From a virus: 41,908 nucleotides of DNA. The position numbers and the translations under genes are program-made. The stretch spans positions 1 to 41,908 of the IMG/VR virus record IMGVR_UViG_3300049432_000209. The stretch is one strand, 5' to 3'. The first letter of the stretch is position 1. The number at the start of each line of letters is the position of its first letter. Of the stretch, positions 860 to 40,560 are shown one piece after another. The notes beneath the pieces were generated by a model that saw only the letters and a list, made by a program, of their open reading frames with translations, was not told the origin of the DNA and searched no databases.

Positions 860-903
860 TGGAGCGGGCGAAGGGAATCGAACCCTCGTATGCAGCTTGG
901 GAA
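860..903 (-). other. attL: 3' remnant of tRNA-Gly(CCC)
   Basis: Read on the minus strand this is the 3' part of a tRNA: loop TTCCCAA (anticodon CCC), the 3' anticodon stem, variable loop, T-arm (GGGTTCGATTCCC), acceptor strand CGCCCGC, discriminator T and encoded CCA. The 5' half is missing. The bases before the loop (AAAATAA) cannot pair with GCTGC, so the gene is cut at the anticodon loop, a typical crossover point for tyrosine integrases. An integrase lies 143 bp away. The intact tRNA should sit at the other end of the element, outside the window. Confidence 0.85.
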
Positions 904-969
904 TTATTTTTTAGCACCATACCGTAGCAAGCCCAAGCACCACAAAGCCCACGTTTTATAGGCACTTCT

Positions 970-989: not shown

Positions 990-1046
990 GCAGCACCTCT
1001 CCAAACCCCTCACCACGCGCGTCCCGGTGCCTAGGGAGTGCCTAAG

Positions 1047-2195
1047 ATGCCTAAGAAAGTCAGTCTCACCGATGCCGGTATTCGGGGCCTTGTTGCCCCT
1101 GCTACCGGGCAGAAAACTGTGTGGGACAAAGGCTCACCCCTTGGTGTGCGTGTCTCACAGGGAGGATCAAAAACGTTCGTTGTCATGCTCGGCAGCGGTT
1201 CCCGACACACTATCGGCCGGGTTGGCATTGTCAAACTGACCGATGCCCGCGAAGAAGCGAAGCGGCTCATCGCCGCCAAGACCCTTGGCATGATCCAGAA
1301 GGAGAGCATCGTCACGTTCGGGGAGGCTCTTCCACTGTTCCTAGAGGACAACTACCGCCCTCCCAAGAAGCCCAGGACGAAATCGGAAGCCACCCGATGC
1401 TTGGAGGGCCACTTTCCGGCGCTCCGCAAGAAGCAGCTATCCGCAGTCACGGACGGCGATATCAGCACAGCCCTCGCCAAGCTCGACCATGTTCCAAGCG
1501 AACAGCTGCACGCCTTCCGCTTCGTCAGGACGTTCCTGAAGTGGTGTACCCGGCCCCCGCGCCGCTACATCAAGATTAGCCCTCTGGACGGCTACGCAGC
1601 CCCCAGCGAGGACGTAAAGCGGTCCCGCATCTTGACCGACGTTGAACTGGTCAAAATCTGGCACGCATGCTCAGGAATGTTCGGGGATATGGTTCAGTTG
1701 CTCATCCTCTGGGGAACCCGAAACGGTGAAACGGGCCGCCTTTCCCGCAAGTGGCGGGAGGCTGACGTGCTGACCATACCGGGCAAGTTCACGAAGAATA
1801 AGCGTGCGCACGCCATCCCGCTCTTACCGATGGCATGCGCGATCCTCGCTCGCCAACCCGAAGCCGGAGACTATTTCTTTCCCGGCAAGTTTCCCGGCAC
1901 CCACTTCAATGACGGTTCCTGGGGCAAGTGCAAACTTGAATTGGAGAAGGCGAGCGGAGTGTTCGACTGGCAACTTCGGGACATCCGCCGCACGTTTCGC
2001 TCAAACATGCCGAAGCTCAAAGTGAGCCGGGACATCGCCGAAATCCTGCTCAATCACGTTTCGGGAAACAAGAACGAACTGGACGAGATTTACGACAGGT
2101 ACGACTACATCGAAGAGAAACGCGAGGCGCTGCAAAAGTGGGAAGCGAGGTTGAAACTTCTCCTACGCTCTCCACAACTTTCAGCCGTCGCATAG
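1047..2195 (+). CDS. int: Tyrosine-recombinase integrase
   Basis: Phage integrase of 382 residues that catalyses site-specific recombination between attP and the tRNA-Gly attB. The N-terminus (about 1-80) matches the DUF4102-type arm-binding domain of P4-like integrases, followed by a core-binding region (about 90-170). Catalytic residues can be placed: R225 (GTRNGE), K250, R314 (RDIRRTF), H337 (LNHVSG) and Tyr349 (IYDRYDY). The first position of the usual HxxR box is Arg311 instead of His. ATG 1047 is preferred over the in-frame GTG at 1038 because AGGGAG lies 8 nt upstream of it. The gene abuts attL and ends in its own terminator. Confidence 0.93.
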   Translation: MPKKVSLTDAGIRGLVAPATGQKTVWDKGSPLGVRVSQGGSKTFVVMLGSGSRHTIGRVGIVKLTDAREEAKRLIAAKTLGMIQKESIVTFGEALPLFLEDNYRPPKKPRTKSEATRCLEGHFPALRKKQLSAVTDGDISTALAKLDHVPSEQLHAFRFVRTFLKWCTRPPRRYIKISPLDGYAAPSEDVKRSRILTDVELVKIWHACSGMFGDMVQLLILWGTRNGETGRLSRKWREADVLTIPGKFTKNKRAHAIPLLPMACAILARQPEAGDYFFPGKFPGTHFNDGSWGKCKLELEKASGVFDWQLRDIRRTFRSNMPKLKVSRDIAEILLNHVSGNKNELDEIYDRYDYIEEKREALQKWEARLKLLLRSPQLSAVA

Positions 2196-2737: not shown

Positions 2738-2874
2738 AAGCCCCGACCAAATACTCTTTCTGCACCTTCCTCTTTCACTTACGTTCTATCGTCGGGCACG
2801 GGATGTCCTTGATGTCTGTGAGTTACCACTACACAGCCCCCGGCCACCCTAGACAGAGTATTTGGTCGGGGCTT
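2738..2874. repeat. 20-bp perfect inverted repeat, 97-bp spacer
   Basis: AAGCCCCGACCAAATACTCT at 2738-2757 is repeated exactly in inverted orientation at 2855-2874. The identity stops sharply at both ends. The spacer has no gene. In DNA this could be a paired binding site; in RNA it would be a long-range stem. Its place upstream of the relaxation-type gene block makes an origin one possibility. Confidence 0.8.
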
Positions 2875-2892
2875 ACGCCCCAGACTCACTCG

Positions 2893-2918
2893 TTGACGGA
2901 CAAAACATCTGGTACAAT
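2893..2918 (+). promoter_or_regulatory. Promoter, TTGACG and TGG-TACAAT
   Basis: An extended -10 (TGG TACAAT, -10 hexamer 2913-2918) with TTGACG upstream at 2893-2898. The 14-nt spacing is shorter than usual. It is one of a family of similar sites in this element. No gene follows before the terminator at 2957-2990. Confidence 0.5.
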
Positions 2919-2924
2919 TAACAG

Positions 2925-2990
2925 TGCGAGGAAACTCGTAATTTTGGAAATCGCCGAAACCGCCTTGCTTCATTGCGAGCGGTTTTTGCG
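2925..2990 (+). ncRNA. Candidate small RNA, about 65 nt
   Basis: A promoter-like site ends at 2918 and a terminator ends near 2990, with no usable open frame between. The predicted RNA starts with a short stem closed by a GAAA tetraloop (GCGAG-GAAA-CTCGT) and ends in the terminator stem. Expression is not shown by the sequence alone. Confidence 0.3.
2957..2990 (+). terminator. Terminator hairpin
   Basis: AAACCGC and GCGGTTT form the base of the stem. Inner TTGC and GCGA can extend it, and a T-run follows. Confidence 0.65.
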
Positions 2991-3040
2991 TTACACTTCA
3001 CAGATGCGCGGAAGAGTTGCCGCGCTACTTGTACCGCTCA

Positions 3041-3062
3041 CAGTCGCTTCGGCGGCTGTTTT
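3041..3062 (+). terminator. Terminator with UUCG tetraloop
   Basis: CAGTCGC-TTCG-GCGGCTG is a 7-bp stem (one G-T pair) closed by a stable UUCG tetraloop, followed by TTTT. Confidence 0.7.
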
Positions 3063-3178
3063 GCGTTCCGATGTTAAAATTAAGTTGGACGGCTCTTTCG
3101 TTCAAACCTTGCTGCACAATACCGAACGGCGTTCCACCAAAAACAAGGTTACGGGTCGCGCGGCAAGCTTTTAACGGA

Positions 3179-3187
3179 TGATATGAT
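3179..3187 (+). promoter_or_regulatory. Extended -10 promoter
   Basis: TGA TATGAT ends 8 nt before the ATG at 3196. If used, transcription would start at or next to the start codon. A GGAGG also lies between the two, so a start site further upstream is equally possible. Confidence 0.4.
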
Positions 3188-3195
3188 TGGAGGAT

Positions 3196-3357
3196 ATGAA
3201 TGACGACACGATAACCGTCGAAGAGTTTTTGAGCAAAGTCAGCGCAAAGAAGTTTACCGATCCACGCGGGCAAGACTGGTACTCGTTTATCACAGGCGGC
3301 ACGTTGCGCGTCTTTGAAGGGCTAGGAACTCTCGTCGCTTTTGCCACGCTACAATAA
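3196..3357 (+). CDS. Small protein of unknown function
   Basis: Encodes 53 residues (MNDDTITVEEFLSKVSAKK at the start). The ATG follows GGAGG at ideal spacing. The N-terminal half is acidic and likely helical. The C-terminal half is more hydrophobic (FITGGTLRVFEGLGTLVAFA) and could be a weak membrane or protein-contact segment. It ends 3 nt before the GTG start of the ATPase at 3361, so the two are probably translated together; this gene may be a partner or regulator of the ATPase block. No family was recognised. Confidence 0.6.
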   Translation: MNDDTITVEEFLSKVSAKKFTDPRGQDWYSFITGGTLRVFEGLGTLVAFATLQ

Positions 3358-3360
3358 AGT

Positions 3361-4416
3361 GTGCATCTCGAAATCATTGGGCGATCACGCTACGGCAAGT
3401 CTACATTTCTAGAACACGAGATCCTCAACGCTCCGGGTGGCTTTGTATTTCTTGACCCGCACGGCCACAGCGCCGAGCGTATCGCTGACACCATTCCCTG
3501 CGTCTATTGGGACGCGTCAGAGACAGGCATCGGTTTTAACCCGCTCAAAGACACTAAAGGACAAGCGCACGTAGTCGCGAGCCAGGTGGTCTACGCAATC
3601 AAGGCAGTAGCGGGAGAACAGAGTTGGGGGCCAAGGCTCAATTGGTTTTTGTATCAAGCCGTCCGGCTGGCGATCGACAACAACGGCACGCTCTTGGACA
3701 TCCCGAAAATCCTAACGGACAAGTCCTTTAGACAGAAATGTCTTAGACGCTCCACGTACTCTTCTTTTTGGGAACAACAGTTCGAGCCGCTGGACGACCG
3801 CTACCGAAACGAAGCCATCGCGCCAATTCTAAACAAGGTCGGCATGTTTGATGCAAATCCGCTGCTCAATGCGATCCTCAGCCACAACACCATCAACTTC
3901 TCGAAGGTCATGGAGAAGGGCCAGCGCGTCGTCGTGAACCTCGCGAAGGGCAAACTTGGCGAAGAGCCGTCGTATCTTTTGGGAGCGCTCATCGTGTCGA
4001 GCCTCTACAGCGCCGCGCAGTCCCGGCCAGTCGGTTCCCCGCAGTTCGATTTGTTTGCAGACGAGTTCCAGAACTTCGCCACGCAGTCTTTTGCAGACAT
4101 CCTCTCGGAAGCGGGGAAGTACGGATTGAACCTCACCTTGTGCCACCAGTACCTTGACCAGCTCTCGGAGGAGCTTGTTCCAGCCGTCTTTGCCAACGTC
4201 TCGAAGATCGTCGCCTTCAACGTATCGGCCGAAGATGCGGAATTTCTGGGGAAGGAAATGGACTTGGCCCCGGAAGCCCTCGCAGACCTTCCACCTTACC
4301 GAATCTGGGTTAAGGTGGGCATCGGGCGCGATTGGCGCGATACCGAGCCTCCAGTGCCCGTACAAGGCCGCCTAGAGGCCAACAGGAGGCATACGAGAGC
4401 GAATTATGTCCCGTAG
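3361..4416 (+). CDS. VirD4/TraG-type coupling ATPase
   Basis: A 351-residue ATPase of the FtsK-HerA superfamily, related to conjugation coupling proteins that pump or recruit DNA. Walker A is at residues 7-15 (GRSRYGKST), Walker B at 230-235 (DLFADE), and the following QNFATQSFADILSEAGKYGL segment with CHQYLDQL matches the TraD/TraG C-terminal region. No membrane segment precedes Walker A, so it should be soluble, unlike full-length VirD4. The start is a GTG 3 nt after the previous stop. Its end overlaps the next ATPase gene by 11 nt. The pair suggests a two-ATPase complex, with membrane anchoring supplied by the partner. A packaging or defence role is possible. Confidence 0.75.
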   Translation: MHLEIIGRSRYGKSTFLEHEILNAPGGFVFLDPHGHSAERIADTIPCVYWDASETGIGFNPLKDTKGQAHVVASQVVYAIKAVAGEQSWGPRLNWFLYQAVRLAIDNNGTLLDIPKILTDKSFRQKCLRRSTYSSFWEQQFEPLDDRYRNEAIAPILNKVGMFDANPLLNAILSHNTINFSKVMEKGQRVVVNLAKGKLGEEPSYLLGALIVSSLYSAAQSRPVGSPQFDLFADEFQNFATQSFADILSEAGKYGLNLTLCHQYLDQLSEELVPAVFANVSKIVAFNVSAEDAEFLGKEMDLAPEALADLPPYRIWVKVGIGRDWRDTEPPVPVQGRLEANRRHTRANYVP

Positions 4417-7030
4417 CCGCGTCTTCGAGATTCTTTCTCCTCTTCTTGGCCTCCCGCTATTCACCCTCTTCTGCTATTTCTTTTTCAGTTGGGCGTTCGC
4501 CGACGATCCCGAACTACTTCACGTATTTCTTGTTTGCACAGGCATAGCGGTGTTCCTTGTAAGCGCGGGCTTTATTTGGCTCGGTGTTTCGGCGACCCGT
4601 CCCATCCAAGCAACTGACCTTTTACCACCAATACCACCAATCCAGCCGGTAGAACCTACGACGTCATCACCGGTGGAATGGCGTCGTGATGCCACGTCGC
4701 CGAAAGTTTATCTCGCCCTACTGCTGCTGTTCGGCGGAATGCTTTGGGCGTTATACCTGCTCCCCTCTAAAATGCGCATGTATGTAACGAAGCCGGGGAG
4801 CACCGACGCGAACGGCAACTGGATTTGTTTTGGCGATTCCGTACTGCGCGACGGCATGTGTCATTCGCTCTACCCCACAGATGCGATGAGCGATGGCGGC
4901 CGAATGTTAGGCATGCTCCTCTACGCCGGACTGGCGGCATTGCTGTACTACGCCTTCGTCAACGGACGCTGGTACGCCAAGTGGCGTCAAGGCGACGCCG
5001 AGGCGAAGGTCGAGAACATGCTCGTTGAAGGCCGAGCAGAACACCAAACTTTGATGGACAAGCGGAAAGCTGAATGGGAAGCCCGGCCGCCGCCATCGCG
5101 TGCCGAACTTGAACGCTCACTCAACGCCGCCTTCACTTCCATTGTGTGGCCCAGAAAGAGCGAGTTGGTAGCCATCGTAGCGCAGGGCTATCCGAGCGGG
5201 AGCTTGAACTACGTCACGCACACGCCGGATGAAGCCCTCGCCTTTTATAAACTGTACTTGGACGCTGCCATCGAGGGACTGAGTGCTTACTTCGACGGCC
5301 TCGCTTCTACGGACATCAGCTCGCCTTTTGTCGCACACCGCTTTCCTGAACAGGAAGAAGTTGCAGAGCGGCTCCGCGCACTTGCCCGGCCGTTCAAGGA
5401 AATCTACCACCAACACGAAAAATACCGGAACTTGTTTGGCAGTATGCTTCCCGAACTCCCCCCGCGCATCCGTTGGCGCGACTACGAAGGCAAGACAGAA
5501 AAAGAGTACGATCGGGACTTGAAGCAGTGGGACAAGCAGTGTGACAAAATCATAGACGCCCTCCCACCCTTCGAGCGAGCACTCATGGGAACGCCAATGT
5601 ACCCTTATGCACAGCAATTTGAGATTACCGAAACAAAATCAACCTTCACCTTCCCGGAAGACGCACGATTCTTCGGCCAGTGGATTATTGGCGAACCCGG
5701 CGCAGGCAAGACCACCTTCATTTCGACCATGATAGAGGAGGACTTGCAGAAGGTTGCTCGCAACGAAGCCTCTGTCTTCGTCATGGACAGCCAGAACGAA
5801 CTCATCCCCGACATCGCAAAGCTAGAACTGTTTGCGCCGGGACGGCCCTTGCACGGCAAGCTCATCTACCTTGAGCCGAACCCTGACTATCCACTTGGCC
5901 TCAACATTTTCGACATTAACAAGTCGCGGCAAAGTTCGCTCTCTTCTTCCGAAGAACGCATGATGCTGCAAAACGGCGTCGAGTGGATGGTGGACTTCTT
6001 TTTAAGCTCATTGGTCAAGTCTGACGAAACCTCACGACAAGGAACGTTCCTGACCTACCTGATACCGGCTATTCTCGCAATTCCCGATGCTACAGTTTTT
6101 ACCCTTCAAGACTTGCTAGAACCCGCTAGAACAAAGGGCGGCGAAACCGGCTACGACCGCTACAAGCAACACTTCGGCGGCTTGCGGGAGAATACGCAGA
6201 AGTGGCTTCGAGAGCGGATGCACTCAATAGAACTTGCAGTAACCCGCAACGGCATCCGCGACCGGCTCGAAGGCTTTGTTGCCCGCGATCTGTTCCATGA
6301 CATGTTCAAGCATCCTCACAACAAGCTCGATCTGTTCCAGGAGTTACAGAGCGGCAAGGTGATATTGGTAAATACGAAGGGCGCGTTGCTCAAAAAGAAC
6401 CTTGAGCCATTTGGCCGCTACTTCATTGCTCGGCTTTTACAGGCCGCTGAGGAGCGCATGTTCACCGAGCGAGGCAATCGCCTTCCGGTCTATGCATACA
6501 TTGACGAGGCGCACGACTACATAGCCGAAGAAGAAAACATTGAAGAACTGAAGAACAAGGCGAGGAAACAGAAGGTCGCGCTGATTATTGCGAACCAGAT
6601 GGAATCGCAAATTACCATGCCGCTTGTGCGGGAAGCACTCGGGCGCATGGCGATACAGTGTCGCGGCGAGCCTCCGGTAGCGAAGGACGAGGCTCCCGTG
6701 TGGCATGTGTCACTCGGAAAACAAGAGCCGGTGCGGGTGAGCTTTCCCGATACGCAATTTTCCAAGATGCCAAAAATGTCCGAAGGCGACTACCAAGCAA
6801 TGTTACAGAAAATGCGGGAGAGATTTTCTACCCGCTCAGGTCATACACCGAGTGCACAGAGCACCGATACGCCGGTTAGCGAGGAACCTACTCGGAGCCT
6901 TAGCGAAGCGGATTTAGATTATTACCCAGAATGGATTTTAGAGGCCCAGGGAGTGCCACGCGACCGCACATCAGCAGCTCCGAAACCGCCGCCGAAGACC
7001 CCGCCCAAGTCCGACCTCGACTTTGGATAG
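4406..7030 (+). CDS. Membrane-anchored HerA/VirD4-like ATPase
   Basis: An 874-residue protein. Four hydrophobic segments occur at about 9-31, 37-62, 101-120 and 167-185. The loop 121-166 between the last two holds two cysteines (C141, C152) and probably faces the periplasm. The large cytoplasmic part has Walker A near 428-435 (GEPGAGKTT) and Walker B near 695-700 (YAYIDEAHDYIAE), then ARKQKVALIIANQME, typical of HerA/TraG-type motors. The C-terminal 70 residues are Pro/Ser-rich and likely disordered. Membrane topology plus ATPase matches a T4SS coupling protein that moves DNA across the inner membrane. No other T4SS channel genes are in the window, so its substrate is unknown. There is no Shine-Dalgarno; the start overlaps the previous gene. 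Confidence 0.75.
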   Translation: MSRSRVFEILSPLLGLPLFTLFCYFFFSWAFADDPELLHVFLVCTGIAVFLVSAGFIWLGVSATRPIQATDLLPPIPPIQPVEPTTSSPVEWRRDATSPKVYLALLLLFGGMLWALYLLPSKMRMYVTKPGSTDANGNWICFGDSVLRDGMCHSLYPTDAMSDGGRMLGMLLYAGLAALLYYAFVNGRWYAKWRQGDAEAKVENMLVEGRAEHQTLMDKRKAEWEARPPPSRAELERSLNAAFTSIVWPRKSELVAIVAQGYPSGSLNYVTHTPDEALAFYKLYLDAAIEGLSAYFDGLASTDISSPFVAHRFPEQEEVAERLRALARPFKEIYHQHEKYRNLFGSMLPELPPRIRWRDYEGKTEKEYDRDLKQWDKQCDKIIDALPPFERALMGTPMYPYAQQFEITETKSTFTFPEDARFFGQWIIGEPGAGKTTFISTMIEEDLQKVARNEASVFVMDSQNELIPDIAKLELFAPGRPLHGKLIYLEPNPDYPLGLNIFDINKSRQSSLSSSEERMMLQNGVEWMVDFFLSSLVKSDETSRQGTFLTYLIPAILAIPDATVFTLQDLLEPARTKGGETGYDRYKQHFGGLRENTQKWLRERMHSIELAVTRNGIRDRLEGFVARDLFHDMFKHPHNKLDLFQELQSGKVILVNTKGALLKKNLEPFGRYFIARLLQAAEERMFTERGNRLPVYAYIDEAHDYIAEEENIEELKNKARKQKVALIIANQMESQITMPLVREALGRMAIQCRGEPPVAKDEAPVWHVSLGKQEPVRVSFPDTQFSKMPKMSEGDYQAMLQKMRERFSTRSGHTPSAQSTDTPVSEEPTRSLSEADLDYYPEWILEAQGVPRDRTSAAPKPPPKTPPKSDLDFG

Positions 7031-7032
7031 CG

Positions 7033-7041
7033 TGATATTAT
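7033..7041 (+). promoter_or_regulatory. Extended -10 promoter, TGA-TATTAT
   Basis: CGTGATATTATTTTA closely follows the CGTGATATAATTTA pattern seen elsewhere in this element. It begins 2 nt after the ATPase stop codon and would give a leader of about 90 nt for the next gene. Confidence 0.5.
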
Positions 7042-7137
7042 TTTACTAGTGCGCGGTACCACCAAGCACTACTCCCCGCAACAGGAGTGAGCAGAGCGAC
7101 CTTCGACAGCAAAAGCGTTTTTTATTATTTAGGAGGC

Positions 7138-8025
7138 ATGAAAAAGAGTTTTACAGCAGCACTCGAAGTTTTGAACCGACGCCGCTTGGCGCGTCGTAAC
7201 TTCCTGACCGACTACCTGGGCGGCAGCGCGGACAATCGCCGTAAGGAAATTTACGACCTTTCTGCGCTCGAATACCTCACTTGCTACCCGCCCGATGGCG
7301 ACGGCGTTTTTGAACGCTCCTATCCCCGCCAATTCTTCCGTATCTACAGCAAGGGATTGAAGGCTGACCGCGCTCTAAGAGCGGTAGGCATCGAGCCTAT
7401 CAAGCATCCTGATATTGGCGAGCAGTTCTGGCACCAGATGCTCATTGACGACATCGTTATGTCGTTTGAAATCGCAGCCAAGCAAGCCGGGCTTCCCTTT
7501 AAAGACCAGTACGAAATCTTAGGCGACAAGCCGCTAGAGCTGCCCTGCAAAATATCTTTCACGTTTCCGTCTACCGGCAAGACTCATACCTCAGAGCGTG
7601 CGCTGTGTCCTGACGCGCTCTTTGCGATTGGCGACACCTACTTTGCGGTAGAGGCTGACCGCGGCACCGAGCCGATAGAGCGCTCCAACCTCAACCAGAC
7701 GAGCTACCTGCGAAAGTTTTTGCAGTACGCCTACGCCTTGAAGGGCGGGACGTACAAAACCGAATGGGGCATCCCAAACTTGATGGTGCTGCACATCTCG
7801 ACCAGGCCAGAACGCACCAAAGGCCTCATGGCTTTCATGGAGAAGCTGGGAGCCAAGTCGCAGAGCCAGTGCTTCAAGCCCGCGCCGTCGCTGTCTTCAA
7901 CTGTGAAGGCGCCCAAGCCCTTTCTTACCCTGCTTACCGACCCGTACGAGCGAGTCGGCCACCCGCCGTTCATCATAGGAGAGAACCATGGACGACAAGA
8001 TAAATCGACTGATCGAGCTGCGTGA
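7138..8025 (+). CDS. Replication-relaxation family protein
   Basis: A 295-residue protein resembling the Replic_Relax family (PF13814), found on plasmids and conjugative elements and thought to act in DNA relaxation or replication initiation. Supporting motifs are an N-terminal winged-helix-like region (about 1-50), WHQMLIDDIV (98-107), then PDALFAI (159-165) and YFAVEADRGTEP (168-179) followed by YLRKFLQYA. The PD...ExD spacing recalls nuclease-like folds, but I make no catalytic claim. ATG 7138 with TAGGAGGC is preferred over the GTG at 7087. The last 38 nt overlap the zinc-knuckle gene. It probably works with the two upstream ATPases on element DNA. Confidence 0.65.
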   Translation: MKKSFTAALEVLNRRRLARRNFLTDYLGGSADNRRKEIYDLSALEYLTCYPPDGDGVFERSYPRQFFRIYSKGLKADRALRAVGIEPIKHPDIGEQFWHQMLIDDIVMSFEIAAKQAGLPFKDQYEILGDKPLELPCKISFTFPSTGKTHTSERALCPDALFAIGDTYFAVEADRGTEPIERSNLNQTSYLRKFLQYAYALKGGTYKTEWGIPNLMVLHISTRPERTKGLMAFMEKLGAKSQSQCFKPAPSLSSTVKAPKPFLTLLTDPYERVGHPPFIIGENHGRQDKSTDRAA

Positions 8026-8164
8026 CATCCGCAACAAGGCGACGGCTGAAATCGAAGCCATACTCGGCGGCGGCGAAACGAAAGAAAGGAAGGCCGTTAC
8101 GTGTTCGGCCTGCGGAACCGCAGGACATACTGCGCGGACATGCCCGACGAAAGCGGGGACGTGA
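7988..8164 (+). CDS. Small CCHC zinc-knuckle protein
   Basis: Encodes 58 residues. Residues 1-35 are helical and charged. The C-terminal CSACGTAGHTARTC (39-52) is an exact C-x2-C-x4-H-x4-C zinc knuckle, a fold that binds single-stranded nucleic acid. The start overlaps the replication-relaxation gene and has AGGAGAG upstream, so the two are probably coupled. A nucleic-acid-binding accessory role in DNA relaxation or transfer is a reasonable inference. The stop codon overlaps a promoter-like element. Confidence 0.7.
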   Translation: MDDKINRLIELRDIRNKATAEIEAILGGGETKERKAVTCSACGTAGHTARTCPTKAGT

Positions 8165-8626: not shown

Positions 8627-9412
8627 ATGCCATTCGTAGATTTTGCAGCAGTCAAAACGCGTGTGACCATCGAAGAAACCGCCCACAAGCTAGGATTAGA
8701 GCTAAAGCCGTCCGCTGGAAAACTACGGTGCGCGTGCCCCGTACATGGCGGCGGCGACCGTGCAATCGTCATCACGCCTGAGAAGGGATTGTTTTGTTGC
8801 TTTGGCAGCAAGCCCATGGCCGGTGGCGATCAGATACAGCTTGTCGCGCACATCAGGCAAATTCCGGTTAAGGAAGCAGCCGCGTTTTTGGATGGTACTG
8901 TTCCGCAGTCGCGGAATGACAGTCCACAACACAAGGCTTCTTCAACACTTCCCACAAGCCCCCCGGGAAGGAAGCCAGGGTTCGACGTAGACGCTTATGC
9001 GTCGAAGTTGGATCCTGGTGCTCCCGCCTTGGTACCGCTTGGCATCTCTGCGGAAACGCTGAAGGCATGGAGGGCCGGTTATTCAAACTCCGGTACCAAC
9101 CGAGGACGCCTGGCGATCGCGCTGCATGACCGCGACGGCAATACCATTGGCTTTGCCGGTCGAGCGCTCGGCAACGAACAGCCAAGCATCACGATCCCCA
9201 ACGGCATCAATCCGCAGGAGATCATCTTCGGCAGCGAGCGTGTAGAGGAAGGCACCCTGTACCTGGTGCGCGACGTGCTCGACGTGCTGAAGGCTCATGA
9301 AAGCGGCGTGACCAACTGCGTCTGCTTTTTGACCGAAATATCGGCCCTGCAGGTCGAAATGCTTGCGGCGCTTATGACGAATAAACGCTGTGATTCCATC
9401 GAGTTGTTTTGA
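8627..9412 (+). CDS. Degenerate DnaG-like primase
   Basis: A 261-residue protein with the DnaG layout. The CHC2-type zinc-binding region spans about 33-75, but with C37-x2-H40 and C58-x2-Ser61, so the fourth ligand is missing. A linker (90-130) is followed by a DnaG core-like N-terminal segment with RLAIALHDRDGNTIGFAGRAL (161-181). The toprim start reads LVRDVLDVLKAHESG (213-227) where active primases have VEG..D, so the catalytic Glu is absent. The chain ends before the usual DxD. It may bind DNA without making primers. The ATG at 8627 follows AGGAGGAGG. A terminator follows the gene. Confidence 0.75.
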   Translation: MPFVDFAAVKTRVTIEETAHKLGLELKPSAGKLRCACPVHGGGDRAIVITPEKGLFCCFGSKPMAGGDQIQLVAHIRQIPVKEAAAFLDGTVPQSRNDSPQHKASSTLPTSPPGRKPGFDVDAYASKLDPGAPALVPLGISAETLKAWRAGYSNSGTNRGRLAIALHDRDGNTIGFAGRALGNEQPSITIPNGINPQEIIFGSERVEEGTLYLVRDVLDVLKAHESGVTNCVCFLTEISALQVEMLAALMTNKRCDSIELF

Positions 9413-12264: not shown

Positions 12265-12426
12265 GTGGCAGAACGCATCGCAAACTTTCTTGGCTGGCTT
12301 CTCACCCTTCTCTTAGGCGTGTTCATCGGCATGCTGTACATCTTCGCGGCGAATCCGAAGTGCTACTTCGAGCCGAACGACCTCATCCGCATTGCAGTCG
12401 CGATATTGTCGAATCTGACACCTTGA
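12265..12426 (+). CDS. Small single-pass membrane protein
   Basis: Encodes 53 residues from a GTG start with GGAGG 5 nt upstream. A transmembrane helix spans about 9-29 (LGWLLTLLLGVFIGMLYIFAA). The last 14 codons lie antisense to the end of the serine recombinase gene, so the original C-terminus may have been replaced when that gene arrived. Function unknown. Confidence 0.55.
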   Translation: MAERIANFLGWLLTLLLGVFIGMLYIFAANPKCYFEPNDLIRIAVAILSNLTP

Positions 12427-12934
12427 AGTCCTTGGCTATCGAAGCCACCTGCTCACCGGCAACCTTCCGCACACAGGCAAGGCGGCGCTGCTCTTGATCT
12501 AGCTTCGGACGACGGCCCAGCCGAACCCCCCTAGCAACCGCCCGAGCGCGGCCCTCGGCTGTCCTCGTCAGTATCAGCTCCCGCTCAAACTCTGCCAATC
12601 CGCCCAGGACTGTCAGCATCAGTCGGCCGTGCGCCGTCGTGGTGTCGGCCCAGATGTCGCCGAGGGACCGGAAGCCCGCGCTACGATCGCTCACGAGCGC
12701 CAGGATGTTTAGAAGGTCGCGGGTTGACCGTGCGAGCCGATCCAGCCGCGTTACCAGCACCAGGTCGCCGTTTCTTAGGCCGCGTAGCAGCTTCTTTAGC
12801 TCTGCGCGGTCTGTTTTTGCTCCGCTGACCTTTTCCCTGAAGATACGGGCGCAGCCAGCCGCTTCGAGCTGAGCCACTTGGTGCTCAAGCGCCTGCCCGT
12901 TGGTGCTGACCCGCGCGTAGCCGTAGAGATTCAT
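12383..12934 (-). CDS. Serine recombinase (resolvase/invertase)
   Basis: A 183-residue small serine recombinase. The N-terminal domain opens with LYGYARVSTNGQALEHQ, containing the catalytic Ser of the YxRVS motif. It continues with LVTRLDRLARSTRDLLNIL, containing the conserved Arg pair, and a long E-helix (AEFERELILTRTAEGRARA). The C-terminal helix-turn-helix is VASIAKDFKVSDSTISRL. It recombines DNA through a phosphoserine link at dimeric sites. ATG 12934 is chosen because the family starts there. A 20-bp repeat lies 6 nt upstream of the gene and its inverted copy 136 bp further on, so it may invert that segment or use it as a res site. It is GC-richer than the chain to its left and looks acquired. 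Confidence 0.88.
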   Translation of the reverse strand: MNLYGYARVSTNGQALEHQVAQLEAAGCARIFREKVSGAKTDRAELKKLLRGLRNGDLVLVTRLDRLARSTRDLLNILALVSDRSAGFRSLGDIWADTTTAHGRLMLTVLGGLAEFERELILTRTAEGRARAVARGVRLGRRPKLDQEQRRLACVRKVAGEQVASIAKDFKVSDSTISRLQCG

Positions 12935-12940
12935 AGGCGT

Positions 12941-13116
12941 GCAAAATTCTTGATTTCTGCAAGCGGCAGTTGAGAGAACGGTGAAAAAATCCGAAATGGC
13001 GAGCATTGGAGCCAGAAAAGCGGTTGTGCTGTAGCGTAGGAACCCATTCAGGTAGTTTATCAAATCTTTAGCAAATACAATGCTTTATGGGTGCGTCAGA
13101 AATCAAGAATTTTGCA
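12941..13116. repeat. Inverted 20-bp repeats bounding 136 bp
   Basis: TGCAAAATTCTTGATTTCTG at 12941-12960 has an exact inverted copy at 13097-13116. Each copy is itself an imperfect dyad around a central TT (CAAAATTC-TT-GATTTCTG), like crossover sites of serine invertases. The 136 bp between them has no gene but contains promoter-like hexamers in both orientations, for example TACAAT rightward and TTGTAT with TAAACT leftward. It lies between the recombinase and the divergent gene at 13154. Confidence 0.7.
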
Positions 13117-13704: not shown

Positions 13705-13731
13705 TGAAGATTGGATGATAAAATTAGTAGC
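13705..13731 (+). promoter_or_regulatory. Extended -10 promoter of ardC
   Basis: GTGAAGATTGGATGATAAAATTA: TGA TAAAAT with -10 hexamer at 13719-13724. The upstream part is almost the same as at 41572-41593 (GTGAAGATGGCGTGATAAAATTA), so the similarity reaches beyond the -10. Confidence 0.55.
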
Positions 13732-13758
13732 GGACTGATCCTACGATGGAGGTTCGCT

Positions 13759-14616
13759 ATGAAGCTCAACGAGCTTTACGATACCGTCACCGCCAACATC
13801 ATCAGACAGCTTGAAGAAGGGACGCCGACCTGGGTACGCCCATGGAAGTACGGCAAGAGCGTGGGGGCACTCCCTACCAACATTGCTACCAAGCGAAGCT
13901 ACTCAGGCATCAACGTGCCGATCCTGTGGTGCCAGAAGGAGACGATGTTCTACCCGACGCACCACTGGCTGACCTTCAAGCAGGCGCTCGACCTGGGCGG
14001 CTGTGTCAGGAAGCACGAGCGGTCAACCACCGTCGTCTTTACCAAGCCGCTCCTCTACCATGAGGGCGAGGAGACGCGGAAGGTAAGCATGCTGCGAACA
14101 TATAATGTTTTCAACGTCGCGCAGTGTGACGGGCTAGATCCTTTTGAAGAACCGCCGCTCATGACCGACCACGCCCGGCACGAAGGAGCGGACACGTTTA
14201 TCAAGTCTACCGGCGCAGACATCAGGTACGGGGGCGATCGAGCTTGCTACGTCCCCCTGCTCGACTTCGTCTCCATTCCGCACAAGCCTCTCTTTCTCAC
14301 CACCGAGAGCTTTTACGCCGTCTCACTTCATGAACTGGTTCATTGGAGCGGGGCCAAGAAAAGGCTCGACCGGGATATGCAGGGTCGCTTTGGCACCAAG
14401 GCATATGCAGCCGAGGAGCTGGTAGCGGAGTTGGGAGCAGCGTTCTCTTGCGCTCATCTCCGCATAACGGGCGAGCTACGCCACGCTTCCTACATCGCAA
14501 CGTGGATTGAGCTTCTTAAGGAGGATAACCGGGCGATCTTCGTTGCCGCAGCAAAAGCCGCTGTTGCAGCGAACTACCTGCGCTCGTTCTCGGAGCCGCC
14601 CGAAGAAGACGAGTAG
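13759..14616 (+). CDS. ardC: ArdC-type antirestriction protein
   Basis: A 285-residue protein of the ArdC family, which protects incoming DNA from host restriction. The N-terminal domain (about 1-125, DUF1738-like; LYDTVTANIIRQLEEGTPTW and the later TYNVFN) binds single-stranded DNA. The C-terminal zincin-like metallopeptidase domain carries HELVH (191-195) and a downstream YAAEELVAELGAAF supplying a third ligand. ATG 13759 follows TGGAGG; an in-frame ATG further upstream lies at the promoter and is unlikely. ArdC is typical of conjugative plasmids and fits the conjugation-like block in this element. A terminator follows the stop. Confidence 0.9.
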   Translation: MKLNELYDTVTANIIRQLEEGTPTWVRPWKYGKSVGALPTNIATKRSYSGINVPILWCQKETMFYPTHHWLTFKQALDLGGCVRKHERSTTVVFTKPLLYHEGEETRKVSMLRTYNVFNVAQCDGLDPFEEPPLMTDHARHEGADTFIKSTGADIRYGGDRACYVPLLDFVSIPHKPLFLTTESFYAVSLHELVHWSGAKKRLDRDMQGRFGTKAYAAEELVAELGAAFSCAHLRITGELRHASYIATWIELLKEDNRAIFVAAAKAAVAANYLRSFSEPPEEDE

Positions 14617-16650: not shown

Positions 16651-16842
16651 ATGCAGCAGCAATTCCTCTACGTATTTACGAAGAACGGCAAAGAGGCAAC
16701 TTGGAAATTGAAGCCAGAGGATACTTACGAGGCGCTAGAGCAGAAGGCGCGCGAAGCCATACCAGCGGGTGACGAGGTAATCGGCTTCGCAAGGAGCATC
16801 CCGGAGTACAACGCGTTTTATAAAGCTAATCCTTATGTGTGA
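16651..16842 (+). CDS. Small protein between terminase genes
   Basis: Encodes 63 residues (MQQQFLYVFTKNGKEATWKL at the start). It begins 3 nt after the previous stop behind AATTT, with no Shine-Dalgarno. Its TGA overlaps the GTG of the large terminase by 4 nt, so they should be coupled. Mixed beta/alpha pattern; function unknown, perhaps a packaging accessory. Confidence 0.6.
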   Translation: MQQQFLYVFTKNGKEATWKLKPEDTYEALEQKAREAIPAGDEVIGFARSIPEYNAFYKANPYV

Positions 16843-18044
16843 TCCTCACACCCGCTCAAAACATAATAGCGGCCGATACTCATAGATTCCGCGTACTGAA
16901 TTGCGGAAGGCGTTTTGGAAAAACCTCACTCGCGGTTGAAGAGATCAAGGGCAAGGCGTTAGCGAAGCCCAACCGCATTGGCTACACCGCCCCCACCTAC
17001 CAGCAAGCTAGAGACATCGCCTGGGCAGCCCTGAAGAAGGAGCTGCACGGCATTATCCTTTCCGCAAACGAAGCGCGGCTTGAGATCACCACCCGAGCAA
17101 TGGGCGGCGGCGAGAGCACGATCATCCTGCGCGGCTGGGAGAGCATCGAGACACTTAGAGGCCAAGCACTCGACTTCATCATTCCGGACGAGGTTGCGAT
17201 GTACCGCAACTTCTGGCCGATGTGGAACGAGGTTATCCGCCCTACTCTCACCGACCGCCGCGGCGAAGCGCTCTTCCTCTCTTCACCGAAGGGCTTCAAC
17301 CATTTTTATGACCTCTACAATCTTCAGGAGACGGACAAGGACTTCAAGAGCTTCCACTTCACCACGTACGACAACCCATACATTCCCGTTGATGAAATTG
17401 AAGCGGCCAAGCGCCAGCTCCCCGAGGATGCATTTGCCCAGGAATATCTTGCAGACTTCCGAAAGCGCCAGGGTCTTGTCTACCCGGAGTTCGACCGCTC
17501 CCGGCACGTCTACAGCGAGTTTCCAGAGGGCACCACGATTGTTGAGAGCATAGCGGGCGCTGACTTCGGATTCGTTCACCCGTGCGCCGTCCTGAAGCTT
17601 GAGATCGACAAGGCAGACGGCATCTGGGTATCGAGCGAATTCTACGAGACCGGCCGCACCGACTTGGAGGTTGCCGAGTACACCGCCGCATTGGGCGTGA
17701 GCCGCGTCTATCCCGACCCTGAAAGCCCGTCAGCGATCGAGGACACGCGCCGTAAAGGCGTCAACGTCCGGCCTGTAGTCAAAGGCAAGGACAGCGAGAA
17801 GAACGGCATCGACAAGGTGCGGGAGTTGCTCAAAGCGAGGAAGCTGCATATTCACCGCTCATGCAAAGGCCTCATCAGCGAGTTTGAGACACACGCCTAC
17901 AAGGAAGGGACCGGCGAGCCGGAGGAGACGGGCGAAGATGCGTTGGACGCGCTTCGCTATCCGATCATGATGATGCAGCCGCACATCGAGATCATTGATG
18001 ACTTCAAGGAAGAGGAGCCGCTATTTAGCGATATCGGGATTTAG
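16839..18044 (+). CDS. terL: Terminase large subunit
   Basis: A 401-residue packaging motor with an N-terminal ATPase and C-terminal nuclease. Walker A is CGRRFGKT (22-29) and Walker B DFIIPDE (112-118). The RNase H-like nuclease carries acidic residues at D242 (AGADFGF), D293 (VYPDPES) and D367/D370 (GEDALDAL). All key residues are present, so it should be functional. The GTG start overlaps the preceding gene by 4 nt. The last 24 nt overlap the antisense moron at 18021. The family is closer to compact podovirus and siphovirus terminases than to T4 gp17. Confidence 0.92.
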   Translation: MILTPAQNIIAADTHRFRVLNCGRRFGKTSLAVEEIKGKALAKPNRIGYTAPTYQQARDIAWAALKKELHGIILSANEARLEITTRAMGGGESTIILRGWESIETLRGQALDFIIPDEVAMYRNFWPMWNEVIRPTLTDRRGEALFLSSPKGFNHFYDLYNLQETDKDFKSFHFTTYDNPYIPVDEIEAAKRQLPEDAFAQEYLADFRKRQGLVYPEFDRSRHVYSEFPEGTTIVESIAGADFGFVHPCAVLKLEIDKADGIWVSSEFYETGRTDLEVAEYTAALGVSRVYPDPESPSAIEDTRRKGVNVRPVVKGKDSEKNGIDKVRELLKARKLHIHRSCKGLISEFETHAYKEGTGEPEETGEDALDALRYPIMMMQPHIEIIDDFKEEEPLFSDIGI

Positions 18045-18817: not shown

Positions 18818-20803
18818 ATGCTTTCAAAGACTAAACGAGATGAAATTGTAGCGCAGGCTCTTCAAGAGCTGGTCTTTGCCCGCCGTTACAAGCAGGGCAA
18901 GGTAGCCAACTGGCAGAAGAACGAGGAGCTGTACTACGGCAAGAAATCTACCCCTTTGGAGAGTAGAGCCAACGTCGATTTGAGCCGTATGCAGGAGTTT
19001 GTGCACACGCTTCTCTCGAAGATCGACAACCCGCTTGTGTTTAAATACGTGAAGCGGAAGGAAAGCCAGCTTAAGCGCGTTGCACGTTTGAATGCGCTTA
19101 GACAGACTGACCAATCGAACGGCGACTGGGATATCAAAGACCTCGTAGGCAAGAAGCAGGCGGTGATCTACGGCCGCGCCATCTACTCCTACTACGCCGA
19201 CAGCTACGACGGCTACCAGAGCCACCTCGACAACGTGGACGTATACGACTTCCTCGTTGACCCGGCAGGCGGCGGCATCGACCTGGAGCGTGCCCGCTAT
19301 ATGGGACGCTACGGAGTGGTGAAGGATAAGCGCGAACTCAAAGAAGGCGCGAAGAGCGGGCTGTACCTGAAATACGAGGTGAACACGCTCATAGGAGGCG
19401 ACGGCAACGCCAGTGAGGTGAACCAAGAGGAGACCAACAAGCTCCCGCGCTCCATGGACACCAACATCACCCGTGGACAAAAGGAAAGCGGCGTTGAGAC
19501 CGACAAGTACAAGTTCTGGGAATGGTACACGACCTATGAAGGCGAGCGCTACTACCTGCTTCTAACCGAGCGCGGAGGCACGGCAATACGCGTAGAACCG
19601 CTCGTTGATATATTTACCCCCACGAAAGAGTTTCCGTTGGGCGCATGGCCGTTCTGGACCTGGGCCGCATTCCCTGACCTCACTGAGTTTTGGACACCCT
19701 CGTATTCTGACTACGTGCGCGAGATCTTCATGGCGCAGTCAGTGTCCATAAACCAGATGCTCGACAACGCCGAGCAGATCAACAAGCCCCAGACCGCAGT
19801 AGACGTAGGAGCCGTAGCCAACCTCGCGCAGCTGAAGTACCGGCGCAACGGCCGCATCGACATGAAGAGCGGTACGGACGTGAACAAGGCTATCCAAATC
19901 ATCCGCCCACCTTCGATCGACACTCCTATGGGCGTGTTCAACATCCTCGAAGGCATCCAGCAGAAGGCTGGGGGCGTTACCGCGGGCGTAGAAGGCATTG
20001 AGAAGACCGACGGCAAGGTAGGCATCTACGAGGGCAACCAGGCCGCCGCCGCTGACCGATTCGGCCTCCTCAACAAATCCTACTCGTTCGGCTACAAGCG
20101 CTTTGGCAAGCTCTACGTCTTAGGCGTGAAGGACAATTTGAATAAGAAGACCGCCGTAGACATGATTGGCCCCAACGGCGTTGAGACGGAGGAAATCTCT
20201 AAGCGCGACATCTTCCACAAGGACGACGATTTTAACGTGACCGTTGAGGCTTCCGACGCTGAAGACCAAGCATCGAGCGTTGAGCAGAAGGACAAGCTCC
20301 AATTCATAACGGAGACCTTCGCGAATCCAGCATTCGCGGGGATACTCAATCCTAAGAAGGCCTTTGAAATACAAGCCAAGGTCGCGGGCCTAACCGAGGA
20401 CGATATCAAGCAGCTCCTCGACACCAGCGAGTACGGCAACGCTGAGCTTATCTCTGAGGCGGCGCTGGACCTTGAAGCGTTGCTCGAAAACAAGAAGGTC
20501 AGGCCGAACAAAGCGGCCAACCTTGTCTACAAGCAGTACTTCGTAGACTTCCTCACTGACCATGAGGACGATATCGACCACCAGCAGTTTATGAAAATCT
20601 CTGCCTACGTCACCTCGCTTGAACCCATCATCATGCAGAACGTGGTCCGGGAGATGAACCAGAAAATAGCAGCGATGCAGGCAAACCAGCCACCGAGCGC
20701 AACGCCAGGCGCACCAACACAAGACCCAACAGCGAGCGCGGGGGCTCCGGGTTTACCAATAAGCCCCGCACCACAACCAAATGTTCAGCTACCGATTGGT
20801 TAA
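18818..20803 (+). CDS. Portal protein
   Basis: A 661-residue protein matching the size of P22-like portals, which form the dodecameric ring for DNA passage. Visible features are an N-terminal helical domain with a YYG.KS motif, an aromatic-rich wing (YKFWEWYTTYEGERYY), the segment FMAQSVSINQMLDNAEQINKP, and a stem/crown-like region (GGVTAGVEGIEKTDGKVGIYEGNQAAAADRFG, split here by its Gly-rich turn). The C-terminal 50 residues are Pro/Ala/Gln-rich. Assignment rests on size, position between terminase and scaffold, and this layout. Its end overlaps the next gene by 23 nt. Confidence 0.75.
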   Translation: MLSKTKRDEIVAQALQELVFARRYKQGKVANWQKNEELYYGKKSTPLESRANVDLSRMQEFVHTLLSKIDNPLVFKYVKRKESQLKRVARLNALRQTDQSNGDWDIKDLVGKKQAVIYGRAIYSYYADSYDGYQSHLDNVDVYDFLVDPAGGGIDLERARYMGRYGVVKDKRELKEGAKSGLYLKYEVNTLIGGDGNASEVNQEETNKLPRSMDTNITRGQKESGVETDKYKFWEWYTTYEGERYYLLLTERGGTAIRVEPLVDIFTPTKEFPLGAWPFWTWAAFPDLTEFWTPSYSDYVREIFMAQSVSINQMLDNAEQINKPQTAVDVGAVANLAQLKYRRNGRIDMKSGTDVNKAIQIIRPPSIDTPMGVFNILEGIQQKAGGVTAGVEGIEKTDGKVGIYEGNQAAAADRFGLLNKSYSFGYKRFGKLYVLGVKDNLNKKTAVDMIGPNGVETEEISKRDIFHKDDDFNVTVEASDAEDQASSVEQKDKLQFITETFANPAFAGILNPKKAFEIQAKVAGLTEDDIKQLLDTSEYGNAELISEAALDLEALLENKKVRPNKAANLVYKQYFVDFLTDHEDDIDHQQFMKISAYVTSLEPIIMQNVVREMNQKIAAMQANQPPSATPGAPTQDPTASAGAPGLPISPAPQPNVQLPIG

Positions 20804-39105: not shown

Positions 39106-39666
39106 TTAGAACGCTGGCTCTTCGCTACCGTCGCTGAGCAATTCTGTTGGGCGACCTTCCTCAGCCTCAAACGGGTTGCCGCCAGTGAATAGAGCCTCAA
39201 GTTTTATTGGCTTCTCTTGGTATGCCTTCAATATCGGTTCTGGCGTCGGTTGAGCCGGGGACGGTACGACGCTGTACTCAGTTTCTAAGTTCTCTCCCTT
39301 GCGGTTGACCGTGATGCTGTAGCCCAGCGGATCGCCCCACTCTTCCGAATGGATAAGCTCTTCGAGAGCGGTTTGAATGGTCGTCTGCGTAATCTCCAAA
39401 ATCTCAACCGCCTTGGTGTCGAAATTCCAGACGACGAACGCCCAGAAATGTTTTGGATTCCAGCCGTTCTTCCCGCTGATATCCGCGTCAACCGGGATGG
39501 TGGTCCAGCGCTCTTTTGCGCGAACCGGCTTTTTGCTTTCAGTCCAATACTCCCAGCCCATGACCGGGGCGCTCAGAATGCGAAACTTGTTCGCACCCTG
39601 CTTGAACTTCATGTATCCGCCGCCGCTTGTCTTAGGAACCTCGTATCCTTCCGGTAGAAATGTCAT
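39106..39666 (-). CDS. ssDNA-binding-like phage protein
   Basis: A 186-residue protein. The start (LPEGYEVPKTSGGGYMKFKQ, then GANKFRILSAPVMGWEYW) is a pattern I know from phage single-stranded DNA-binding proteins of the gp32/SSB-like type. The OB-fold-like core is about 10-110 and the acidic tail is ELLSDGSEEPAF, as in many SSBs where the tail recruits partners. It should coat ssDNA in replication or recombination, alongside RusA and the primase-like protein. It is the last gene of the leftward operon; no Shine-Dalgarno precedes the ATG. Confidence 0.7.
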   Translation of the reverse strand: MTFLPEGYEVPKTSGGGYMKFKQGANKFRILSAPVMGWEYWTESKKPVRAKERWTTIPVDADISGKNGWNPKHFWAFVVWNFDTKAVEILEITQTTIQTALEELIHSEEWGDPLGYSITVNRKGENLETEYSVVPSPAQPTPEPILKAYQEKPIKLEALFTGGNPFEAEEGRPTELLSDGSEEPAF

Positions 39667-39846: not shown

Positions 39847-40031
39847 TTCGAGTAGGCCATCATGTCTTGATACAGAGCAGTTTTTGCTCCCCGTGCATCC
39901 ATGAGACGCTTTCGAGCTGCTCGAACCTTCAAACTTGCTGCGGTTTCTTTTGCGCTCGCGTCTGCAAACTGTTTCATCGCGGCGGCTTCTTCTTCAATCG
40001 CCGCGTCTAGCTCGTTGTTACTGGGTGCCAT
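39843..40031 (-). CDS. Small coiled-coil protein
   Basis: A 62-residue protein, Ala/Glu/Lys-rich and almost fully helical (LDAAIEEEAAAMKQFADASA and on). It overlaps the HNH gene by 25 nt and the next gene by 4 nt. The leader (AAATAAAAT) is AT-rich with no Shine-Dalgarno. It may be an assembly or regulatory partner in the replication operon. Confidence 0.55.
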   Translation of the reverse strand: MAPSNNELDAAIEEEAAAMKQFADASAKETAASLKVRAARKRLMDARGAKTALYQDMMAYSK

Positions 40032-40501: not shown

Positions 40502-40560
40502 AATTATTTCGCAGTATCGCAAGGGCCACTCAGCGCGACCCTGGCGGCACTACGTCTGAG

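Follow-up and report, generated by a model that had tools for sequence, protein, structure and literature searches.

A candidate mobilization module with paired VirD4-like ATPases and a relaxase-family protein in temperate tailed phages

INTRODUCTION

Transfer by phages and transfer by conjugation are generally regarded as alternatives. What, then, does a series of genes resembling coupling-protein ATPases and a relaxase do in the early region of a tailed phage? The question arises from the 41,908-base IMG/VR record IMGVR_UViG_3300049432_000209 (positions 1 to 41,908), the whole of which is referred to here as the window. The original prediction described a plus-strand series of four open reading frames (ORFs), namely, a soluble ATPase (P1), a membrane ATPase (P2), a Replic_Relax-like protein (RR), and a CCHC zinc-knuckle protein, all of which are present (Table 1). 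Here, we examine how far this block extends across phages, islands, and plasmids and weigh what it may do.

RESULTS

The window holds a tailed-phage prophage that is cut at its right end. The gene order runs from the integrase through an excisionase-like ORF, P1, P2, RR, the zinc-knuckle ORF, and a CHC2 primase to the resolvase, ArdC, terminase, portal, adaptor, and tail genes. Consistent with the prediction that terminase, portal, capsid, and ArdC belong to the same element, family searches recognized terminase, portal, and ArdC; the adaptor was likewise found by family search, and the capsid was assigned by position and homology to relatives, which together mark the element as a tailed phage. 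The element also has an integrase beside the 3' half of a tRNA gene and a gene of the relaxase family, as an IME would. Neither a complete tRNA nor a second attachment site (attR) occurs within the window, and the right end of the prophage is therefore missing. The 70-aa excisionase-like ORF had zero Pfam matches; about 0.6 kb without recognized genes separates it from the P1 region, and a search for relatives of the 53-aa ORF that opens the series found none. In the early region of the window, no replication initiator or replicative helicase other than the module itself was recognized.

Table 1. Positions of the main features in the window
Feature	Position	Strand	Basis
3' half of tRNA gene (GGTTCGATTCCCTTCGCCCGCTCCA end), marking the left prophage attachment site; host DNA further left	860..904	-	Sequence
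Tyrosine integrase, Arm-DNA-bind_3 + Phage_integrase	1038..2195	+	Domain search
Small excisionase/AlpA-like DNA-binding ORF, 70 aa	2346..2558	+	Inferred from position
Conserved inverted repeat, candidate RR site (origin of transfer or replication)	2738..2874	.	Arms 2738-2761 and 2851-2874 (24 nt), 89-nt spacer
53-aa ORF, first of the series, 5' of P1	3196..3357	+	Sequence
P1, soluble VirD4/TrwB-like ATPase, 351 aa	3361..4416	+	Profiles, motifs
P2, membrane-anchored coupling-protein (T4CP)-like ATPase, 874 aa	4406..7030	+	Profiles, model, motifs
RR, winged helix + PD-(D/E)XK protein of the Replic_Relax/MOBC relaxase family, 295 aa	7138..8025	+	Profile, model, conserved residues
CCHC zinc-knuckle protein, 58 aa (CSACGTAGHTARTC), overlaps the end of RR	7988..8164	+	Sequence
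DnaG-type CHC2 primase, next conserved gene 3' of RR	8627..9412	+	Family search
Serine resolvase/invertase	12383..13063	-	Family search
ArdC-type antirestriction protein	13711..14616	+	Family search
Terminase large subunit	16839..18044	+	Family search
SU10-like portal	18818..20803	+	Family search

P2 resembles a coupling protein, and its partner P1 has often lost its ATPase motifs. P1 was predicted to be a soluble VirD4/TraG-like ATPase with a Walker A motif from residue 7, and this was borne out: both motifs are intact (Walker A, GRSRYGKS; Walker B, LFADE), and no transmembrane helix was predicted, so that P1 alone lacks the N-terminal membrane domain of T4CPs. The window P1 falls just under the Pfam cutoff on its own (TraG-D_C, 20.5 versus 22 bits); P1 of its relative L066 exceeds the cutoffs for TrwB_AAD_bind (33.9 versus 20.5), DUF87 (31.6 versus 23.2), and TraG-D_C (22.2 versus 22), and a P1 profile matches the sequences of DotL (7e-9) and TrwB (3.5e-8). 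P2, which overlaps P1 by 11 nt, is indeed the four-helix membrane HerA/VirD4-like ATPase that had been described. Its hydrophobic helices (residues 9 to 27, 40 to 58, 101 to 119, and 167 to 185) all precede Walker A, which starts at residue 429, and its Walker B reads YIDEA. P2 of L066 passes the TrwB_AAD_bind (PF10412) cutoff (27.7 versus 20.5), and the structure model of P2 (core pLDDT of about 90) gave TrwB as the best fold match (E of 1e-8, probability of 1.00), followed by DotL and HerA. Judged by sequence and model, P2 has two features of T4CPs, a predicted RecA-like NBD of the VirD4/TrwB group, in which both Walker motifs are present, and an N-terminal transmembrane domain. Sequence searches of the PDB with the P2 and RR profiles returned no matches.

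In nine phage-type loci (G004, L057, G031 to G034, and G036 to G038), the gene 5' of P2 is a P1 homologue (profile-profile probability of 99%, E of 4e-18) without Walker A or B, which we call pseudo-P1. The window, G005, and G035 have an intact P1; that of G003 is cut by the contig end and has Asp-Cys at its Walker B, and the P1 region of G002 is cut off. P2 keeps its motifs. In most of these phages, the soluble partner thus appears to be a pseudo-ATPase, and because P1 loses its catalytic motifs yet keeps its gene position, a mixed P1/P2 assembly is suggested, in which P2 would act as a pump with P1 as its pseudo-ATPase partner. The split into a soluble and a membrane-anchored ATPase, taken as unusual in the original prediction, is real but, going by the sequences compared, is the rule across the whole P1/P2 family rather than peculiar to the window phage. 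In a P2 tree, the phage rows sat on very long branches, and clades were not drawn from it.

RR probably belongs to a relaxase family. The protein starting at position 7138 was rightly predicted to be Replic_Relax-like. The window RR scores just under the Pfam cutoff (Replic_Relax, 22.4 versus 25.3 bits), and its homologue in L033 reaches 71.8 bits with PF13814, the best score among RR relatives. PF13814 is the domain of MOBC relaxases (PMC5357655, Table 1 therein), which are PD-(D/E)XK enzymes such as TraX of pAD1 and MobC of CloDF13 (PMC12857230). The RR model (pLDDT of 91.7) comprises a winged helix (MarR-type, probability of 0.99) and a PD-(D/E)XK domain, for which Foldseek matched SdaI, McrC, XisH, and the nickase N.BspD6I (best E of 5.7e-3). 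In an alignment of 48 rows, the acidic residues D159 and E172 are invariant, and D174 is kept in 44. Hence, RR is predicted to have the PD-(D/E)XK fold with conserved acidic residues, as MOBC relaxases do.

P1, P2, and RR recur in phages with different heads. Viral contigs gave no matches when searched with P1 or P2 as single proteins, and profiles were needed. Profile searches yielded G002 to G005 and G031 to G038, making 13 phage contigs with the window; adding locus L057 of a Bauldia MAG gave 14 phage-type loci. Contig G001/L012 is an island whose P2 is identical to that of Phaeobacter L033 and was left out of the phage count. Among phage isolates, the sole tblastn matches to P1 were in Microcystis phage Mwe-JY31 and phage G (gp156), and P2 and RR had none. 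The order integrase, P1 (or its relic), P2, RR was found in all phage contigs with the 5' end present (in L057, the integrase was judged only within the stretch examined), and a homologous integrase lies at the equivalent place in eight other module-bearing phage contigs. A CHC2 primase follows RR in 12 of the 14 loci, none being recognized in G005 and G033, and ArdC also occurs in four other phage contigs and in L057.

The head genes of these phages differ. SU10-like portals are encoded by the window, G004, G034, and G036; phrog_2662/12 portals by G002, G005, and G035; a phrog_1216 portal by G031; and a phrog_113 portal by G037. G032 and its relative G033 combine a phrog_675 terminase with a phrog_156 portal, G003 combines a phrog_979 terminase with a phrog_267 capsid, and the terminase of G038 is window-like. 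Across different heads, the module proteins share 22 to 54% identity, with open frames, P2 Walker motifs, and RR catalytic residues kept. The closest head/tail relatives of the window, G039 and G040, both of which may be fragments, carry no P2, RR, or window-type integrase. Since phages of different head types share the module and the closest head/tail relatives are without it, the module behaves as an exchanged, retained unit. As delimited by these sequences, the conserved block consists of P1, P2, and RR, with the primase, and occupies the early part of temperate tailed-phage genomes whose heads are of several unrelated types. Of the four genes whose order the original prediction proposed to survey, P1-P2-RR recurs with and without phage genes, but the zinc knuckle does not: no CCHC ORF follows RR in any relative scanned, and we rejected this gene as a part of the module. 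A CCHC relative does occur in G039, at a different place.

The trio also resides on islands and plasmids. A scan with the P2 profile, limited to one genome per species, gave 80 loci, nearly all from Alphaproteobacteria. RR lies directly 3' of P2 in about half of them, and this adjacency was seen on about 50 islands and plasmids, where a soluble P1 of about 390 to 450 aa is often found on the same island. A third layout, P1 followed by a small gene and a P2 of about 900 aa, is without RR. The islands contain tyrosine and serine recombinases and restriction-modification cargo, and most of those with the trio carry no primase. In Sulfitobacter and Methylomagnum, plasmids with P2 and RR also have separate genes for replication. 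A Replic_Relax or Replic_Relax-like gene comes after a VirD4-like one in Staphylospora and Embleya plasmids and in Microcystis phage Mwe-JY31; in Embleya (NZ_CP108778), a PrgI conjugation locus contains the series VirB4-VirD4-Replic_Relax.

Family searches covering part of the ORFs of the window, itself cut at the right prophage end, recognized no T4SS genes other than the VirD4-like pair, and no T4SS family was among the 25 most frequent families listed for 96 island neighbors. The element therefore appears not to be an ICE, as judged from a window lacking one prophage end, since no VirB4-type T4SS of its own was recognized. We accordingly rejected the ICE as the leading explanation; the idea of a phage hybrid survives, with the VirD4-plus-MOBC mobilization pair of plasmids and IMEs as the closer match. 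Among 25 island host genomes, 12 had a VirB4 match, a count without a baseline and for this reason not taken as support, and 13 had none, so that a helper is often not resident.

A covarying inverted repeat precedes P1. An inverted repeat of about 20 bp lies 5' of P1 in 10 phage contigs, including the window, and its core, CGACCCAAT, is common to the window and most of the other nine. A repeat of the same build is the strongest inverted repeat of the matching region in G004, G005, G031, G032, G033, G035, G036, and G038, and scores reach 15 to 21 compared with 7 to 12 in simple shuffles. Compensatory changes affect 10 of 14 consensus pairs. A covariance model trained on nine contigs found the repeat of G037, which was outside the training set (E of 0.026; arms, AGCCACGACCCAATAC/GTATTGGGTCGTCGCT), and the window repeat folds as single-stranded DNA (z = -5.45). 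Covariation by itself is no proof of a hairpin, because two copies of a protein site also coevolve. Rfam had no match for the repeat, and it is absent from the RR-bearing Bauldia locus L057 and from the RR-less G039. About 9 of 22 RR-type islands tested have a comparable repeat 5' of an XRE gene (arms, 13 to 23; spacer, 38 to 84), compared to 0 of 8 RR-less layouts 5' of P1, a contrast that is suggestive only, because the searches used different anchor genes. We regard the repeat as a candidate nick or transfer site; alternatively, it could serve as an operator, as an arm site for the integrase, or as an origin of replication.

DISCUSSION

Taken together, the sequences, the models, and the analogy with known systems suggest that the block is a MOB module, made up of its own VirD4 coupling protein and a MOBC-family relaxase, in temperate tailed phages that would be phage-IME hybrids. 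We give this reading a probability of about one half. By analogy with VirD4-plus-MobC plasmids, IMEs, and CloDF13, we propose that RR nicks the DNA and that P2 and P1 hand it over to a helper channel. After excision of the prophage as circular DNA, the winged helix of RR would bind the inverted repeat and RR would nick this DNA. From its anchor in the inner membrane, P2 would form a mixed ring with P1, whose part would be structural or in contacting the substrate and often would not involve ATP hydrolysis; the pair would take the nicked DNA and dock it on the T4SS channel of a coresident conjugative element. The primase and ArdC, which resemble genes aiding incoming single strands, may help the arriving strand to establish. 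The element would then travel in capsids and, given a helper, by conjugation.

Since the module and a matching candidate hairpin site recur in a dozen otherwise different phages, conjugative spread beside virus particles is possible. Tentatively, these phages might be dual-mode elements in which a complete conjugal mobilization system (cis site, MOBC relaxase, and heteromeric pump with a pseudo-ATPase) has been selected alongside capsid transfer. If so, conjugation would leave a prophage a way out when it is prevented from lysing its cell or from infecting a new host, and genome annotation could no longer separate prophages sharply from IMEs. The P1/P2 pair with its pseudo-ATPase provides a testable case of a heteromeric coupling protein, and the small module with its candidate nick site makes the question accessible to experiment. 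Several points count against mobilization: the best RR fold match has an E of only 5.7e-3, there is no known oriT for comparison, the repeat is absent in L057, 13 of 25 island hosts had no VirB4 match, lytic Bacillus phages encode Replic_Relax proteins too, and the adjacent primase fits replication equally well.

Because the primase adjoins RR, replication is the main rival, albeit an unlikely one. The block would then be a replication or partition module in which RR nicks a phage origin at the repeat; at the membrane, a hexamer of P1 and P2 would unwind the DNA or move it, with the primase making the lagging strand. On this view, phages took over plasmid machinery to replicate their own DNA or to persist as plasmid-like prophages. 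The primase in 12 of 14 phage-type loci and an early region with no other recognized initiator or replicative helicase fit this well. The module-free relative G040 has its own P-loop/helicase-type genes in that region, and the authors who described Replic_Relax proteins in Bacillus phages read them as plasmid replication/relaxation. On the other hand, trio-bearing plasmids have separate Rep proteins, most islands carry the trio without a primase, G005 and G033 have no recognized primase, and P2 resembles the membrane pumps of the VirD4 type, among which the known relatives transport DNA through membranes.

Export or uptake of DNA by P1 and P2 as a stand-alone pump, in the manner of TdtA of Thermus ICETh1 or Streptomyces TraB, is improbable. 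No T4SS genes were seen near the trio and 13 of the 25 host genomes had no VirB4 match, as such a device would allow, and TdtA, an ICE-borne FtsK/VirD4-type ATPase with a nuclease neighbor, needs no T4SS (PMC5365140). However, Gram-negative hosts offer no known outer-membrane route, RR is MOBC-like and thus of a family known with T4SS, and the neighbors of TdtA differ (NurA and a type IIG enzyme).

Antiphage defense, for which the original prediction had allowed, or superinfection exclusion by a HerA-like ATPase and a nuclease is very improbable. A HerA-type ATPase with a PD-(D/E)XK nuclease is a common defense build, and restriction-modification cargo occurs on the islands, but PADLOC gave only a weak match of P1 and P2 to a single protein, mad8 (31 to 62 bits), none for RR, and no system-level match to HerA-nuclease systems or MADS. 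Fold and profile put P2 nearest to TrwB, the module is fixed beside the integrase and primase, unlike variable defense cargo, and defense leaves pseudo-P1 and the repeat unexplained. Finally, we disfavor as scarcely credible a functionless, decaying relic of a conjugative element captured by a phage, which would account for the lost P1 motifs in nine loci but not for the covarying repeat or for the open frames, P2 Walker motifs, and RR catalytic residues kept across phages with different heads at 22 to 54% identity.

Several known systems outside phages resemble the block. The few mobilizable plasmids that have a VirD4 of their own also encode a MobC relaxase, and two Streptococcus IMEs (PMC5704250) show this pairing as well. 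These IMEs resemble our element in having an integrase, a VirD4 coupling protein, and a PF13814 protein, which in the IMEs is the MobC relaxase; they are nonphage elements of Firmicutes, with no P1 partner described. The coupling protein MobB of CloDF13, whose large membrane domain of three helices is needed for mobilization, also assists relaxation (PMC7431656). The CloDF13 mobilization region (the T4CP MobB and MobC, MOBC) likewise sets a VirD4-type ATPase with an enlarged membrane domain beside a PD-(D/E)XK relaxase with no T4SS genes, but it has no second soluble ATPase and belongs to a small plasmid, not a phage. The mob reading frames being broken in the CloDF13 record, the comparison covers published features. 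The Embleya locus (NZ_CP108778) also has a VirD4-like ATPase directly 5' of a replication-relaxation protein, but within an actinobacterial PrgI-type T4SS locus. Transjugation by TdtA/ICETh1 is similar in its tRNA integration, integrase, hexameric VirD4/FtsK-type pump, nuclease, and independence of a T4SS; it differs in its nucleases, has no Replic_Relax protein, and works with natural competence.

Among phages, Replic_Relax proteins are known from the lytic Bacillus phages Novomoskovsk, Bolokhovo, Izhevsk, and Kirov, two of which also encode an FtsK/SpoIIIE-family protein; there, the genes were reported as plasmid replication/partition genes, and no integrase-adjacent P1/P2/RR cassette was described. 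Mobilizable plasmids derived from phage-plasmids, P1-like plasmids with a gained oriT/mob, mix phage and mobilization functions as well (PMC10879196), but phage transfer is mostly lost there, whereas here the mob genes belong to phages that encode packaging functions and have been conserved in phages of different types. Our search of the open-access literature turned up no account of a VirD4-MOBC module that tailed phages have in common, or of the P1/P2 pair, the pseudo-ATPase, or the repeat. Within that literature, Replic_Relax phages and mobilizable plasmids derived from phage-plasmids are thus already known, and the conserved VirD4-MOBC phage module, the P1/P2 pair, pseudo-P1, and the repeat are new.

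Phage contigs and the right end of the window

The possibly fragmentary contig G039, one of the two closest head/tail relatives of the window's phage, retains genes for pseudo-P1 (a homologue of the soluble VirD4/TrwB-like ATPase P1 with neither Walker A nor Walker B) and a CCHC zinc-knuckle protein; the membrane VirD4/TrwB-like ATPase P2, the Replic_Relax/MOBC-family protein RR, and the inverted repeat are all absent from it. In the window, a perfect inverted repeat at the serine resolvase gene is a possible resolution or inversion site. Near the right end, SSB-like and HNH-like genes, read from the sequence, suggest that the phage extends beyond its structural genes up to the contig end.

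Coordinates of repeats and genes
Feature	Location	Details
Inverted repeat, perfect, 20 nt	window 12940-12959 / 13097-13116	137-nt spacer
SSB-like gene	window 39106-39666	minus strand
HNH-like gene	window 40007-40522	minus strand
Pseudo-P1 gene	G039 (L147) 2881-3627	
CCHC zinc-knuckle gene	G039 (L147) 6062-6472	
Second long inverted repeat	L028 18426	
Second long inverted repeat	L032 8054	
Second long inverted repeat	L037 34	
Second long inverted repeat	L040 5271	
Second long inverted repeat	L060 6674	

Islands and the RR-less layout

IMGVR_UViG_2898945296_000003 (L012), labelled viral in IMG/VR, resembles an integrated island. This contig and the Phaeobacter island L033 encode identical P2 proteins, and a check of the contig for phage genes like those of the window gave none. 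Several islands carry a second long inverted repeat (arms of 22-27 nt, for example TGCAACACTATTCCCAATTTTG; spacer of 106-114), which a tyrosine-recombinase gene adjoins in most cases and which is perhaps an attachment-site structure. Islands of Roseobacters and sphingomonads also bear small conserved partner genes (clusters c4, c5, c8, and c9): a 119/147-aa gene with no Pfam match immediately upstream of P2, a 231-aa membrane protein, a 161-aa protein, and DUF3768. A c8-like gene lies between P1 and P2 in the phage contig G035.

A third layout has no RR and consists of P1, a small gene (c2), and a P2 of about 900 aa (L066, L082, L086, L087, L090, and others), with beta/gammaproteobacteria, Acidobacteria, and one MAG labelled Patescibacteria as hosts. 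This layout may have a different function, because the P1 and P2 of L066 are the strongest matches to the defence protein mad8 (61-62 bits).
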